A DNA stretch of 39,844 nucleotides from contig JALVXO010000126.1 of assembly GCA_027022775.1 (NCBI GenBank), forward strand, positions 1 through 39,844, given 5' to 3'. Positions 22,008 through 28,829 of this stretch are shown piece by piece. The notes beneath the pieces are model-generated. The model worked only from the letters and a program-made list of their open reading frames with translations. It ran no database searches and was not told where the DNA came from. This DNA is from Campylobacteraceae bacterium (GTDB lineage: Bacteria; Campylobacterota; Campylobacteria; Campylobacterales; Sulfurovaceae). The stretch's first letter is position 1. The number at the start of each line of letters is the position of its first letter. Position numbers and translations under genes: made by a program.

Positions 22008-23918
22008 TTAAAAAATTTTTAAACTCTCTATAAGCTCCTCTTTGCTTTTAGCATTTGCAAAGCAGGCGCGGTTTGTGCACACTTCGTAAGTTCCGCCCGG
22101 GGTTGTTTTAAACAGGGTATATGGGTAGGCAAATTCTAAATTTTTAATCTCTTCAAGCGCCTTTTTGTTTGATTTTATGATATTGTCATCTTTAATGTAT
22201 CTAATAGCCGCATCTGCAAGTGTGGGGCTGGAGATTGGCTGGCGCATAATGTCATAAGAGTTAACCTCCAGGGTTTTAAATGCAAATTTTTCATAAACCG
22301 GTTCTGCCAAAGAGCGCAGCGTTAGCAGATTATGAGCCATTACTGCAACAGAAGATGGGTAAGAGGTGTCGTAATTTTCAGCGAAATTTTTAAACTCTTT
22401 ATTGCCGACAATCCAAAAACCGTTACGGTAAAATCTTTTTATCGCTTCATTTACCAAATTAAGCGCTTTAATAAGCTCCATCTCATCAAGGGTTAAGTTG
22501 TAGCTTTGAATATAAACATAAACCAGCCATGCGTAATCTTCTAAAAAGCCTTCAACTTTTGGGCGGTTTGTTATTAGGGCGCTATGAAAAACATTAACCC
22601 CTTCAACCATTTTACTCTCTAATGCTGCAAGGCTTTTTTTTGCAATTTCCAAAAATTGAGGCTCTGTTTTTGCGGCTTCAAACAAAGATGCAATCATCAT
22701 AGCATTCCAGGATGTAATAACCTTTTTATCTACAAACGGATACTCTCTTTTTTTTCTAATCTCCAGCAGCGCCTCTTTTGCTGTTTTAAAAAACTCTTTA
22801 TCTCTTAAATCCAAAGAAGATAGCCTTACAATCGATTTTCCTTCGAAATTTCCCCTTTGAGTTATTCCAAAATCGTAAAGCAGCTCTTCGCTCAAACCAT
22901 ACTTTTTAAATGCCTCTTTTGCTTCATTGTAACCGTAAACAAAATATGCCCCTTCGCCCCCTTCGCTGTCTGCATCGCTGGCACTGAAAAAAAGCCCCTC
23001 TTTAGACATCTTTTTAAGCATAAATTGCAAAATTTCAACCGCTATCTCCCGGTAGCGCTCTATCTTAAAAATTCTATGCGCCCTTAAAAGAGTGTAACTC
23101 ATTAAAGCGTTATCGTAAGTCATCTTTTCAAAATGGGGCACAAGCCAGATTCTATCGGTGCTGTATCTGCAAAATCCCCCCTCAACTATATCGTAAATAC
23201 CGCCCAAAAGCATACTGTCAAGTGTTTTTGTTACAATCTCTTTTAACTCTTCGTCTCTATTTAATTTATACAGATTCATTGCCAGGTTTAAAACATAAGA
23301 GCTTGGAAATTTTGGCGCATCCCCAAAACCGCCCCACTCTTTATCGTAAATAGTTTTAATCTGCTTTGCAGCTGTATCTATAAGCGCCGGGGTTAGTTTA
23401 GTGGCTTCAATTTTGCTTTTTGGTTTAAGCGCTTCTAAAACATCCTGCCCTTTTCTTGCCAGAAGCGCAGGATCTTTTTGGTAACTCCCAATAATGGTAT
23501 TTAGCAAATCTTTAAAGCCTATTATCCCGTATCTTGGCTCTGGCGGAATATATGTAGCAGAATAAAACGGCTTTAAATCGGGTGTTAAAAAAATAGAAAG
23601 AGGCCAGCCGCCCGGTTTTCTATTCATTTTTACAAAAACTTCCTGAAAATGCTTATCTATATCGGGGCGCTCCTCTTTATCTACTTTTATACTGATAAAA
23701 TGCTCATTTAAAATCTTTGCCGTCTCTTTATCTTCGAAAGACTCTTTTTCCATAACATGGCACCAGTGGCAACTGCTATAACCAATGCTTAAAAAAATCG
23801 GTTTATTCTCTTTTTGCGCCCTGTTTAGCGCTTCTGGTCCCCATGGAAACCAATCAACGGGGTTGTGCGCATGCTGCATAAGGTAAGGAGACTCTTCGTT
23901 AATTAATCTGTTTGCCAT
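22008..23918 (-). CDS. DUF255 / YyaL-like thioredoxin-domain protein
   Basis: [49 protein letters not shown]; glycosidase-like C-terminal region. Confidence 0.95.
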
Positions 23919-24007: not shown

Positions 24008-25804
24008 ATGAAAAAATTAGTTTTGATATTTATACTCTTGGCTTCATCTCTTTTTGGCGGTTTTGGCTCTTTTAACCTGCCAAAACAGCAAAAATTTTTA
24101 ACCCCGCAAGAGGCGTTTAAAGTAAGCGCAAAAAGTGCCAAAGGCGGTGTAGAGATAGACATTAAGCTTGGCGAAAAGATACATATTTACAAAAATAAAT
24201 TAAAATTTACTATCACAAAACCGCAAAAAAAAGAGTTGCATCCAGCTTTGCCAAAAGGCAAAGATGTCGGCGGCGAGGAAGGGTATGAAAAAGAGGTAAA
24301 AATTTCAATACCTAATTCTCAAATTGGAATAAACGGCGCATACACCCTGGAGGTTAAGCTTGTTGGGTGTTCAGACAGCGGTATATGTTACGCTCCGCAA
24401 ACTTACACATTTAATTTAACCGGCAAAAGCGCCGCCGCTGCAGACAGCAAAAAAAATAAAAGCCAAAAGAGTGAAAGCTTTTTTGGCAAGCTCTCTAAAC
24501 TAGCAAAAGACGGCAACAGCAAGCAGATTGCCCAGGCTTTAAAAAACGAGGGGGTTCTTTTTATCCTGCTTTTATTTTTTATTGTCGGGCTGTTAATGGC
24601 GCTGACCCCTTGCATTTTGCCTATGGTGCCGATTTTAAGCTCTATAATTATCCAGCAGGCGGGCAAAAAAGATGGCGGATTAGGCAAGGGGGCATCTTTT
24701 GCAATTTCGCTTGTTTATGTGCTTGCAATGTCTTTTACTTATGCGGTTATCGGTGTTGTTGCCGGGCTTTTAAATTTTGATTTGCAGGCAAATGCAAACA
24801 ATCCTTGGGTTATTATTCCGGTTGCGCTTATTTTTATAGCCCTGGCTTTTTCGCTTTTTGGATATTTTGAGATGGCTCTGCCTTCAAGCTGGCAAAGCAA
24901 GCTTAATAAAATTAGCAATTCAGCAGAGGGTAAAGGGTATTTTGGAACCGTTGTTATGGGTGCAATTTCTGCCCTAATTGTTGGCGCTTGCACAGCTCCT
25001 GTTATTAGCGGGGCTATAATATTTATTTCAATTACCGGCGATGCGCTTCTTGGAGGGCTGGCACTGTTTGTTATGGGCATTGGCGCCGGGGTTCCTCTTT
25101 TGCTTGTTGGAATCGGAGCTGGAAAATTTGTTCCAAAGCCTGGCGGATGGATGGAGAGTGTATCGAAATTTTTCGGCTTTTTAATGCTTTTAATGGCGCT
25201 TTACATATCGCGCGGAGTTATTAGCAATACGCTTTTTATGTATCTATTTTCGTTTTTGCTTATTGGCGCGGCAATATTTTTTGGAGTGTTTAGCCCGCAA
25301 AACACAAAAGGTTTTGCAGGTGTGTTTAAAACCGCGCTTTTTGTAATGCTGCTTTACGGTTCACTTGTTTTTATCGGCGCTGTTGCTGGCGCAAAATCTG
25401 TTTTAAATCCGCTAGAGCCGTTTATTGGGGTTAAAGCAAAAACCACAGCCAAAGAAGAGAGTGCAAAAAGTTATACGCTAAATGAACTTTTAAAAGAGAT
25501 TAAAAGCGCCGGCAAACCTGTAGTGATAGATATCGGCAAAGAAAACTGCGCCGCTTGCACAGAGCTTGCTACAAAAACTTTCCCTAGCAGCAAAGTTCAA
25601 AAAGAGTTAAAGCGCTTTAAATTTATAAAACTGGATATTACAAATTATACCAAAGATGACCAGGAGATTATGAACCACTTTAAAATATTCGGCGCTCCAA
25701 ATATTCTTCTTTTTGACAGTAATGGCAGCGCTTTAGAAGATAAATTTATACAAGGGTATATTGAGCCGGAAAAATTTGTAAAAATATTGAAAGATATTAA
25801 ATAA
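24008..25804 (+). CDS. dsbD: Thiol:disulfide interchange protein DsbD
   Basis: N-terminal periplasmic domain (CSDSGICYAPQTY), 8-TM core with TPCILPMVPILS and CTAPVISGA, C-terminal thioredoxin domain with CAAC. Confidence 0.94.
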   Translation: MKKLVLIFILLASSLFGGFGSFNLPKQQKFLTPQEAFKVSAKSAKGGVEIDIKLGEKIHIYKNKLKFTITKPQKKELHPALPKGKDVGGEEGYEKEVKISIPNSQIGINGAYTLEVKLVGCSDSGICYAPQTYTFNLTGKSAAAADSKKNKSQKSESFFGKLSKLAKDGNSKQIAQALKNEGVLFILLLFFIVGLLMALTPCILPMVPILSSIIIQQAGKKDGGLGKGASFAISLVYVLAMSFTYAVIGVVAGLLNFDLQANANNPWVIIPVALIFIALAFSLFGYFEMALPSSWQSKLNKISNSAEGKGYFGTVVMGAISALIVGACTAPVISGAIIFISITGDALLGGLALFVMGIGAGVPLLLVGIGAGKFVPKPGGWMESVSKFFGFLMLLMALYISRGVISNTLFMYLFSFLLIGAAIFFGVFSPQNTKGFAGVFKTALFVMLLYGSLVFIGAVAGAKSVLNPLEPFIGVKAKTTAKEESAKSYTLNELLKEIKSAGKPVVIDIGKENCAACTELATKTFPSSKVQKELKRFKFIKLDITNYTKDDQEIMNHFKIFGAPNILLFDSNGSALEDKFIQGYIEPEKFVKILKDIK

Positions 25805-25853: not shown

Positions 25854-26237
25854 ATGGTTCACTTAAGTAAAGAGAATATTTTAAACCTTCTGCATAAAGA
25901 GCAGCTTTTAGATGAAGATTTGCAAACGCTTCTTAAAGCAAGGGAGGAAGGCAAGGCCGACTTTGTTTTAATAGATGTAAGAGAGCCGTTTGAGTATGAG
26001 ATGGCGCATATTGTGCCAACAGATATGCTTTTGCCAACCAGCCGGTTTCAAGAGTGGTTTGAAGAGATTCAAAAATTAAAAGATAAAAATTTAATAATTT
26101 ACTGCAGAACCGGCAACAGAAGTTACCAGGTGCAACAGATACTAAAAAGATACGGATTTAAAAATGTCGGCAATTTAGCTTACGGAATTGTCGATTACAG
26201 CGGCAGAATTGAACAAGGGGTTTTTGAAAACAAATAA
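25854..26237 (+). CDS. Single-domain rhodanese
   Basis: FVLIDVREPFEYEMAHI; active-site loop YCRTGNRSYQ. Confidence 0.93.
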   Translation: MVHLSKENILNLLHKEQLLDEDLQTLLKAREEGKADFVLIDVREPFEYEMAHIVPTDMLLPTSRFQEWFEEIQKLKDKNLIIYCRTGNRSYQVQQILKRYGFKNVGNLAYGIVDYSGRIEQGVFENK

Positions 26238-26244
26238 CGCCGTA

Positions 26245-26286
26245 GCCTTTTTTTGTGCTATAATTTAAGAAAAAAAGGCACAAAAA
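26245..26286 (+). promoter_or_regulatory. Overlapping alternative inverted repeats around a TATAAT box upstream of the SLC13 transporter
   Basis: GCCTTTTTTT (26245-26254)/AAAAAAAGGC (26270-26279) and TTTTTGTGC (26250-26258)/GCACAAAAA (26278-26286); TATAAT at 26259-26264. Confidence 0.45.
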
Positions 26287-27611
26287 TGAAAGGTATTATC
26301 AGTGCAGTTGCGATTGGTGTTGCTCTATTTGCGTTGGCTTCTTTAAGCTTTTCTTTAAAACATGCCCTTTTAATCGGAGTAGTTGCTTTGCTGGTTGCTC
26401 TTTGGACAAATGGGGCTATTGCGCTTGGGGTTGTTTCGCTTTTTCCGATTATTCTCTTCCCGGCACTGCATATTTTAAGCCTTAAAGATGTTGCGCCAAA
26501 CTACTCCAAATCTATTATTTTCCTATTTTTGGGCGGTTTTATGATAGCAATTGCTATTGCAAAAACCAATTTGCATAAATATTTCAGTTATAAGCTTTTA
26601 TCGCTCTTTCCAAACACCCCGCGCGGAATAATTTACTCCCTGGCGGTAACTTCTGCGCTTTTGAGCTCAATTTTGTCAAACACAACAATTACTCTTATGC
26701 TTATGCCAATTGGCCTATTTTTAACCCAAAACACCAAATTAAAAGTCCGCTTTCTGCTTGCTATAGCTTACGGTGCAAGCATAGGCGGGATAATAACCCC
26801 AATTGGAACCCCGCCAAATATGCTTCTGCTTGGCTTTTTAGATGACCATCACATTTTAGCACCGACTTTTGGCGAGTGGATGATAAAAGTAGCGCCAGTT
26901 GCTCTGTTGATGCTTTTAACAGTCCCGTTTATCCTATCTATGTCTGTAAAAAATGAAAAAATCGAAGAGTTAAAAGAGGCTGCAGTTTTAAACTCCACTC
27001 AAAAAAGGCTGCTTTATATTCTGGCTGCACTTGTTGTGCTGCTTCTTGTAAATACACCTATAAAACCGTATTATCATGGCTTGGGTTTAAATGAAAAGCT
27101 TATTTTGCTGGGCTTTGGACTATTGATGTTTATGCCAAAAATAGGCTTTTTAACCTGGGATGACAGCAGAGATATCCCTTACGAAATTGTTTTTCTATTT
27201 GGTGCAGGATTTACAATTGCAAAGGCATTTGCAAAAACCGGACTGGCGGCTGATATTGCTCATAAATTGAGTTTTATTTCTAATATGCCGCTTTTATGGA
27301 TGCTCTTTTTTATTGCTCTTTTTGTAAGTTTTGCAACAGAGGTTACAAGCAATACCGCTCTTACAGCTATTGCACTTCCAATTTTTTATGAATTTGCAAA
27401 AAACATGGGCGATAATGCGCTGCCAGTAATGATGGTAACAACAATAGCCGCAAGTTATGCCTTTATGCTCCCAATTGCCACTCCGCCAAATGCCATTGTT
27501 ATGAGCAGCCGCGTTATTAAAGTAAAAGAGATGGCAAAAGTAGGCTTTTTTGCAAACATAGCAGGCGTAATTTACTTAAGCGCAATTGCTTATGTTTTAT
27601 GGGCTAATTAG
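26286..27611 (+). CDS. SLC13/DASS family anion transporter
   Basis: SNTTITLMLMPIG, TPIGTPPNMLLLGF, SNTALTAIALPIF, PIATPPNAIVMSS; start moved to ATG 26286 from the ORF-track 26253. Confidence 0.9.
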   Translation: MKGIISAVAIGVALFALASLSFSLKHALLIGVVALLVALWTNGAIALGVVSLFPIILFPALHILSLKDVAPNYSKSIIFLFLGGFMIAIAIAKTNLHKYFSYKLLSLFPNTPRGIIYSLAVTSALLSSILSNTTITLMLMPIGLFLTQNTKLKVRFLLAIAYGASIGGIITPIGTPPNMLLLGFLDDHHILAPTFGEWMIKVAPVALLMLLTVPFILSMSVKNEKIEELKEAAVLNSTQKRLLYILAALVVLLLVNTPIKPYYHGLGLNEKLILLGFGLLMFMPKIGFLTWDDSRDIPYEIVFLFGAGFTIAKAFAKTGLAADIAHKLSFISNMPLLWMLFFIALFVSFATEVTSNTALTAIALPIFYEFAKNMGDNALPVMMVTTIAASYAFMLPIATPPNAIVMSSRVIKVKEMAKVGFFANIAGVIYLSAIAYVLWAN

Positions 27612-27960
27612 TGATAGTGAAAAGTGATAGTGGATAGTGACAGTTTATCTCTGTTATTCCCACTTGAGAGTGCGCAAAAAGTTAAAATTTCTGTAAAATT
27701 ACCCATTTCAGTCATTCTGAGCGAAGCGAAGAATCTCGATAGAACGGCAGTAAATAGATTCTTCGCTACGCTCAGAATGACGATTAAGGCAAATATTTTG
27801 GACTTTTGCGCAGTCTCGCTTTCGCAGGAATGACAATAACTCCAAACTATCACTGTCAACTGTCACTGTCACTAATTGTACGGCACAGCCGCACCTACAT
27901 TCGGATTACGGAATACAGATTACGGAATTTAAATTATCTATTCTCAATTATCAATTCCCA
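27606..27960. repeat. Intergenic nested-palindrome repeat mosaic
   Basis: Inner arms 27711-27736/27756-27781 (25 of 26 bp complementary); middle arms about 27656-27680/27804-27831; degenerate outer arms GTGATAGTG.../...CACTGTCAC; then GATTACGGAATACAGATTACGGAAT direct repeats. Confidence 0.85.
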
Positions 27961-28085: not shown

Positions 28086-28829
28086 ATGAATAATATAGAT
28101 ATAAATTCACCGATTTTTCAGGCAGAATTAGAAAAAACATGGAAATTTGTGGAAAAAGTCAATAAACAGTTCGGTTTTGTTCAAAACCCAGACGAAGAGG
28201 TTAATGAAGGGGTAGCAATGGGGCTTGCCAGAAACAGGCTTATGTATGGCAAACGCTACTGTCCGTGTTTTATCGTTCAGGGAGAAACCGAAGAAGAGCG
28301 CAAAAAGGCAAACAACCGAATCTGTCCATGCAAACCGGCTTTGGAAAATGAAATTCCAAACAATGGTGTATGCCACTGCGGAATTTTCTGCACACCAGAA
28401 TACGCAGAGCAAAAAGCCAAAGAGAAAGCCCTGGAAGAGGCTGTTCATACCCACTCTAGAGGCTTAAGCGAAGAAGAAGCCCAAATGCTAGTGCATAAAG
28501 AGCAGCTCGATGGAGATGAATTAGAAGCGCTGCTTGAAGCAAGAGAGTTAAAAATGGTAAACTTTACCCTCATAGATGTGCGCGAACCTATGGAGTATGA
28601 AATGGCTCATATTGTCGGCACAGACGAACTTTTGCCAACTTCGCAGTTTTACGACTGGGTTAACAAAATCCAGCACAGAAAAGATGAAAATTTAATAATC
28701 TACTGCCACACAGGAAGCCGAAGCTACCAGGTGCAAATGATACTAAAACAGCAAGGTTTTAAAAGCGTAGGCAACCTGACTTATGGAATTATAAGCTACC
28801 CGGGTAAAATTAAACAAGGAAGATATTAA
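28086..28829 (+). CDS. Ferredoxin-thioredoxin reductase catalytic domain fused to C-terminal rhodanese
   Basis: N-terminal CPC-X18-CPC-X13-CHC Fe-S/redox motif; C-terminal LIDVREPMEYEMAHI and YCHTGSRSYQ rhodanese loop. Confidence 0.92.
   Translation: MNNIDINSPIFQAELEKTWKFVEKVNKQFGFVQNPDEEVNEGVAMGLARNRLMYGKRYCPCFIVQGETEEERKKANNRICPCKPALENEIPNNGVCHCGIFCTPEYAEQKAKEKALEEAVHTHSRGLSEEEAQMLVHKEQLDGDELEALLEARELKMVNFTLIDVREPMEYEMAHIVGTDELLPTSQFYDWVNKIQHRKDENLIIYCHTGSRSYQVQMILKQQGFKSVGNLTYGIISYPGKIKQGRY

Follow-up and report, generated by a model that had tools for sequence, protein, structure and literature searches.

A conserved fusion of a ferredoxin-thioredoxin reductase catalytic domain with a rhodanese in Campylobacterota, a possible ferredoxin-linked persulfide reductase

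Results

The locus and the fusion protein

The window, i.e. the whole stretch of 39,844 nucleotides that we analysed, belongs to a Campylobacterales metagenome-assembled genome (MAG) close to MAGs labelled Nitratifractor; the nature of these records suggests that the host lives at deep-sea vents. Within the window a single open reading frame joins a ferredoxin-thioredoxin reductase catalytic (FTRc) domain to a rhodanese domain (Table 1). Such a fusion had been put forward in the original prediction and was borne out by a Pfam search, in which both domains scored far above the curated cut-offs (FeThRed_B: E = 2.1e-37, 127.8 bits, cut-off 22; Rhodanese: E = 2.9e-14, 53.8 bits, cut-off 22.2). No further Pfam domain was found in the protein.

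Table 1. Features of the window and of related loci. Positions refer to the window unless preceded by the label of another locus or genome.
Feature	Position	Strand	Remarks
Thioredoxin-domain protein	22008..23918	-	transcribed away from dsbD, with 89 nt in between; neighbourhood conserved
DsbD	24008..25804	+	598 aa; N-terminal, transmembrane and thioredoxin-like domains
Stand-alone rhodanese paralogue	25854..26237	+	127 aa; loop CRTGNRS
DASS-type anion symporter	26253..27611	+	between rhodanese and fusion
Palindrome	27713-27779		intergenic, 5' of the fusion
FTRc-rhodanese fusion gene	28086..28829	+	247 aa plus stop; ATG start
FTR catalytic (FeThRed_B) domain	28125..28445	+	residues 14-120; Pfam, whole-genome match at same coordinates, motif
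Seventh cysteine, Cys102	28389-28391	+	four residues past the CHC motif
Rhodanese domain	28515..28790	+	residues 144-235, loop C207-HTGSRS; Pfam, whole-genome match, loop survey
FTRc-TusA-like fusion	L147:3975-4598		
FTRc-TusA-like fusion	L148:4197-4874		
FTRc-TusA-like fusion	L149:4281-4946		
FTRc-TusA-like fusion	L150:3735-4382		
Fusion variant	L100:5001-5927		308 aa; uncultured Sulfurovum
Broken second FTR copy	G090:C1:187723-188008		Nautiliaceae family
Example of arrangement B	L155:3838-7632		

The protein contains exactly eight cysteines, at positions 59, 61, 80, 82, 96, 98, 102 and 207. The FTR motif reads C59-P-C61-X18-C80-P-C82-X13-C96-H-C98-GIF-C102, such that all six cysteines of the FTR family (CPC...CPC...CxC) are present. 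Re-reading of the protein gave the same spacings as previously proposed (CPC-X18-CPC-X13-CHC) and the same extra cysteine within CHCGIFC, namely C102. In plant-type FTR the cysteines 1, 3, 4 and 5 bind a [4Fe-4S] cluster, and 2 and 6 form the redox disulfide. By homology we take C59, C80, C82 and C96 to be the predicted cluster ligands and C61 and C98 to be the predicted active-site pair. The remaining cysteine, C207, is the catalytic cysteine of a rhodanese-type six-residue CxxGxR loop, again as anticipated from the CHTGSRS sequence.

An AlphaFold2 model, for which 30 aligned fusions served as input, reached a mean pLDDT of 90.6 and a pTM of 0.63. According to the model the protein is composed of two well-folded domains, the relative placement of which is uncertain at this pTM. 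Foldseek matches of the model were the single-domain rhodaneses 3ilm and 1gmx, the FTRc structure 1dj7, and 7pwe. By sequence, the FTRc part came closest, among solved structures, to 7pwe and 4tpu and next to the enzymes of plants and cyanobacteria; the rhodanese part scored with MoeZ/MoeB and TrhO rhodaneses.

The seventh cysteine, C102, is nearly universal in the FTRc of Campylobacterota, whether fused or stand-alone. The aligned sequences of 4tpu and 7pwe lack this residue, and it is not known from plant-type FTR. Its presence in almost all stand-alone FTRc of the phylum rules out that it is a relay residue specific to the fusion.

Among the neighbouring genes, the stand-alone rhodanese shares 63% identity with the fused one and sits directly upstream of the fusion gene in three sister genomes. 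The thioredoxin-domain protein is presumably DUF255/YyaL-like, as recognized from its sequence. The symporter was found at this place in the window genome only, among the genomes compared, and is probably not part of the system of the fusion. The near-perfect palindrome 5' of the fusion (CATTCTGAGCGAAGCGAAGAATCT and its inverse) has a folding energy of -41 kcal/mol (z = -7.7) and looks like a REP-like repeat.

Conservation in Campylobacterota

A survey of such fusions across the phylum had been suggested together with the original prediction. We used a sample of 299 Campylobacterota genomes, for which, apart from the window's own, a completeness of 90% or more was required. FeThRed_B was carried by 101 genomes, and in 87 of these the open frame around it spanned 235 aa or more, the size of the fusion. 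The fusion is real and conserved in the phylum. More than 80 distinct fusions were read individually, and both of their domains were confirmed by BLAST. Every fusion of the motif survey had kept the six FTR cysteines (CPC, CPC, CHC), and the rhodanese loop followed the pattern CH[TVS]GSRS or was near to it. In the alignment of 30 fusions all eight cysteines were invariant, as was the GSRS loop next to the catalytic cysteine.

The window protein was matched, by either domain or both, in 52 of 60 relatives. Full-length orthologues were 75-87% identical to it within the genus of the window, and 46-77% identical where they came from other genera and families. Since full-length orthologues exist in other genomes and the cysteines are invariant, the open frame is not a chance occurrence. 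A sporadic artefact or misassembly, the objection that had been raised beforehand, is ruled out by the many full-length orthologues. Hydrogenimonas, Sulfurovaceae and Nautiliaceae are among the named groups that have the fusion, and most sulfur-oxidising relatives have retained the pairing of the two domains. Among 399 Pseudomonadota genomes no fusion-length frame was found, and FeThRed_B itself occurred in 5. Among the FTR matches in plasmids and phages only the split Sulfurovum pair (see below) was seen. Besides the fusion, the window genome encodes an unfused FTRc that belongs to the subfamily of the fused FTR domain.

Two deviating cases were seen. The variant L100 is extended at its C-terminus by some 70 residues. 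In genome G090 a second FTR copy, at the place where the fusion is expected, seems to be broken by stops or frame changes; the stand-alone FTRc adjoining it is intact.

Gene arrangements and history of the fusion

In Campylobacterota FTRc and rhodanese are paired repeatedly, in four arrangements (A to D). In arrangement A the fusion gene stands alone. Arrangement B is that of Nautiliaceae and some neighbours: the fusion gene is overlapped or abutted by a gene for an unfused FTRc. Genes for two small uncharacterized proteins, in some cases a rhodanese, and DUF7897 follow, and the genes are often divergent from glnB-amtB. Examples are L099, L105 and L155, the small proteins being without Pfam match in L105. 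In arrangement C a stand-alone FTRc is followed by a stand-alone rhodanese, in nine genomes in a gatC-dapE context and in one Nautiliaceae genome in the B context. The nine gatC-dapE cases seem to represent a single orthologous locus rather than nine events. In a record of Sulfurovum mangrovi such a split pair is annotated, flanked by gatC and dapE; a gene of the thioredoxin family comes after dapE. Arrangement D is that of the window's genus and its sister lineages: in about 14 genomes dsbD lies upstream of the fusion and is read in the same direction, mostly at a distance of 46-93 nt where no gene intervenes, and in some genomes with a rhodanese in between. In the neighbourhoods compared, the fusions of other families showed no linkage to dsbD, which rules out dsbD as a general partner. 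Neither a consistent sulfur-metabolism gene, rhodaneses aside, nor a conserved biosynthetic acceptor gene was found in these neighbourhoods.

Given ten rhodanese-domain matches among roughly 1,700 genes in the window genome, we estimate a probability below 1% for an FTRc-rhodanese adjacency by chance. In a rhodanese tree of 99 rows a single branch set the fused rhodaneses apart from the others (support 78/90, recovered in 79% of the bootstrap trees), a topology that fits one old fusion followed by mostly vertical descent. The tree of the FTR domain was less clear, with five changes needed for the fusions. The rhodaneses of the gatC-dapE locus formed their own clade (100/100), separate from the fused ones, and for this reason the pairing of FTRc and rhodanese may have arisen more than once.

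A second type of FTRc fusion was seen in four Campylobacterota genomes (Table 1). It carries a C-terminal TusA-like domain (LDTRG...) that lacks the TusA cysteine; Pfam TusA matched L150 alone of the four, below the cut-off (E = 0.0096).

Partner systems

The absence of an FTR variable subunit from the window, stated in the original prediction, extends to the entire sample: none of the 299 genomes had a FeThRed_A match in a search that was positive in a Synechococcus control. A plant-type FTR with an overlooked variable subunit is ruled out by this phylum-wide search with its positive control. FTRc proteins of the ferredoxin:disulfide reductase (FDR) type, archaeal and bacterial, among them the known enzymes of the 4tpu and 7pwe type, function without a variable subunit. 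Because of this, and because none was found in the phylum, its lack is not odd. A TrxB-type model matched in all 299 genomes, in 238 of them above the cut-off, which rules out FTRc as the sole thioredoxin reductase of the cell.

FTRc was present in all 54 genomes with SoxB above cut-off and in 73 of the 76 genomes with a strong match to ATP-citrate lyase (aclB); 195 of the 299 genomes had none of FTRc, soxB and aclB. This co-occurrence fits a role in a sulfur-rich, ferredoxin-driven metabolism. It is confounded by phylogeny, most of the genomes without FTRc appearing to belong to two families. Since families without all three genes largely carry the contrast, it does not constitute independent evidence.

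Discussion

We propose that the fusion is a stand-alone ferredoxin:disulfide reductase, in which the rhodanese would take up sulfane sulfur and the FTR dithiol would reduce it to H2S. We assign this reading a rough probability of 0.42. It is ranked first because the layout of NADH persulfide reductase (Npsr) recurs here with an unrelated reductase half of the ferredoxin type. The function suggested in the original prediction, reduction of persulfides or relay of sulfur linked to ferredoxin, is still an inference, but gains support from the adjacency of FTRc and rhodanese as separate genes, the precedent of Npsr and the co-occurrence with soxB and aclB.

In the proposed cycle Cys207 would be loaded with sulfane sulfur, the donor being polysulfide, thiosulfate or some other carrier of persulfide, to give Cys207-S-SH. 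The putative dithiol C61/C98 would then attack this persulfide such that H2S departs. A C61-C98 disulfide would result beside the predicted [4Fe-4S] cluster and would be reset by two electrons from ferredoxin, delivered singly. The cluster, ferredoxin as donor, the persulfide substrate and H2S as product are all putative. The CH[TVS]GSRS loop is compatible with sulfur transfer but is no proof of it.

Three other explanations rank behind persulfide reduction. The protein could be a general ferredoxin:disulfide reductase that mainly reduces thioredoxins or oxidised cysteines, the rhodanese being a docking module or a target that is kept reduced. The relatives fused to rubredoxin (4tpu) and glutaredoxin (7pwe), which are disulfide reductases, as well as the stand-alone FTRc of the same subfamily in the window genome, point in this direction. 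Mere docking would, however, not need the invariant catalytic cysteine and GSRS loop, and we regard this explanation as unlikely.

A little less likely, in our view, is that the fusion sends ferredoxin electrons to DsbD, either directly or via the rhodanese cysteine, in place of cytosolic thioredoxin, the purpose being the reduction of periplasmic disulfides or sulfur. The dsbD gene of arrangement D is close by and on the same strand, and TsoB (see below) provides a precedent for joining a rhodanese to a DsbD-like protein. A link confined to one genus and its sister lineages cannot, however, reflect a general function, and the TrxB-type matches throughout the sample indicate that DsbD already has its usual donor route. 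Least likely of the three appears a biosynthetic relay, in which the FTR half would use ferredoxin electrons to reductively free or pass on rhodanese sulfur for Fe-S clusters, thiolation or cysteine synthesis. The similarity of the fused rhodanese to MoeZ/MoeB and TrhO and, weakly, the FTRc-TusA-like fusions agree with such a relay. Against it stand the lack of a conserved biosynthetic acceptor among the neighbours, and the missing cysteine and sub-threshold Pfam match of the TusA-like domain.

At hydrothermal vents Campylobacterota play a major part in sulfur oxidation and CO2 fixation, and they run on ferredoxin via the reductive TCA cycle. If persulfide reduction by the fusion were true, ferredoxin electrons would be spent on persulfides and the redox pool of carbon fixation would be tied directly to intracellular sulfur handling. 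Moreover, the design of a reductase with an attached rhodanese would have arisen twice, from unrelated reductases. The fusions could then constitute a widespread, undescribed class of ferredoxin-dependent persulfide reductases of chemolithoautotrophic Campylobacterota, i.e. an iron-sulfur counterpart of Npsr of separate origin, a wider claim that we make more tentatively than that on the function of the protein. The small size of the gene and its presence in named groups make it amenable to testing.

Comparison with known systems

Fusions of FTRc with a partner domain are already known for rubredoxin and glutaredoxin, and the version with a rhodanese is common in public Campylobacterota genomes. 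We found no description of the latter in open-access full texts; subscription papers were outside the scope of this search. The Methanosarcina acetivorans FDR (4tpu) and the Desulfotalea glutaredoxin-FDR (7pwe) likewise consist of FTRc fused to a redox domain and have the six-cysteine CPC/CPC/CxC motif. They differ in the partner domain, rubredoxin or glutaredoxin instead of rhodanese, and the third motif has Tyr at its central position in FDR such as that of M. acetivorans but His in the fusion, as in plant FTR. With the plant and cyanobacterial FTR (1dj7, 2pu9, 7bzk) the fusion shares the fold of the catalytic subunit, the cysteines and the CHC motif. These enzymes, in contrast, require FTRv, have no rhodanese and have a shorter second spacer.

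The model of the selenocysteine-containing FtrB (NF041072) matches the FTR domain of the fusion (E = 9e-19). The score of 67.5 bits against a cut-off of 160 and the lack of Sec or an in-frame stop rule out that the fusion is this selenoprotein. In TsoB (NF045694), which is matched by the DsbD of the window, a rhodanese is joined to a DsbD-like thiol-redox membrane carrier; the rhodanese-DsbD-like TsoB selenoprotein is listed in PMC13188914. The fusion protein lacks Sec and does not qualify as a TsoB; FtrB and TsoB are distant kin only.

A parallel in layout is Npsr, whose C-terminal rhodanese of about 100 aa provides the cysteine that is the first sulfur acceptor, and whose reductase half reduces the rhodanese-borne sulfur to H2S (PMC7969121). 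Like the fusion, Npsr combines a thiol-disulfide reductase with a single C-terminal rhodanese, and its rhodanese matches the fused one. The reductase halves, however, are non-homologous: Npsr has an NAD(P)H-dependent flavoenzyme with CoA in this place, whereas that of the fusion is of the Fe-S ferredoxin type, and Pfam detected no flavin pyridine-nucleotide disulfide oxidoreductase half (Npsr/CoADR-RHD) in the fusion protein. The resemblance between the two is best regarded as a functional analogy only.
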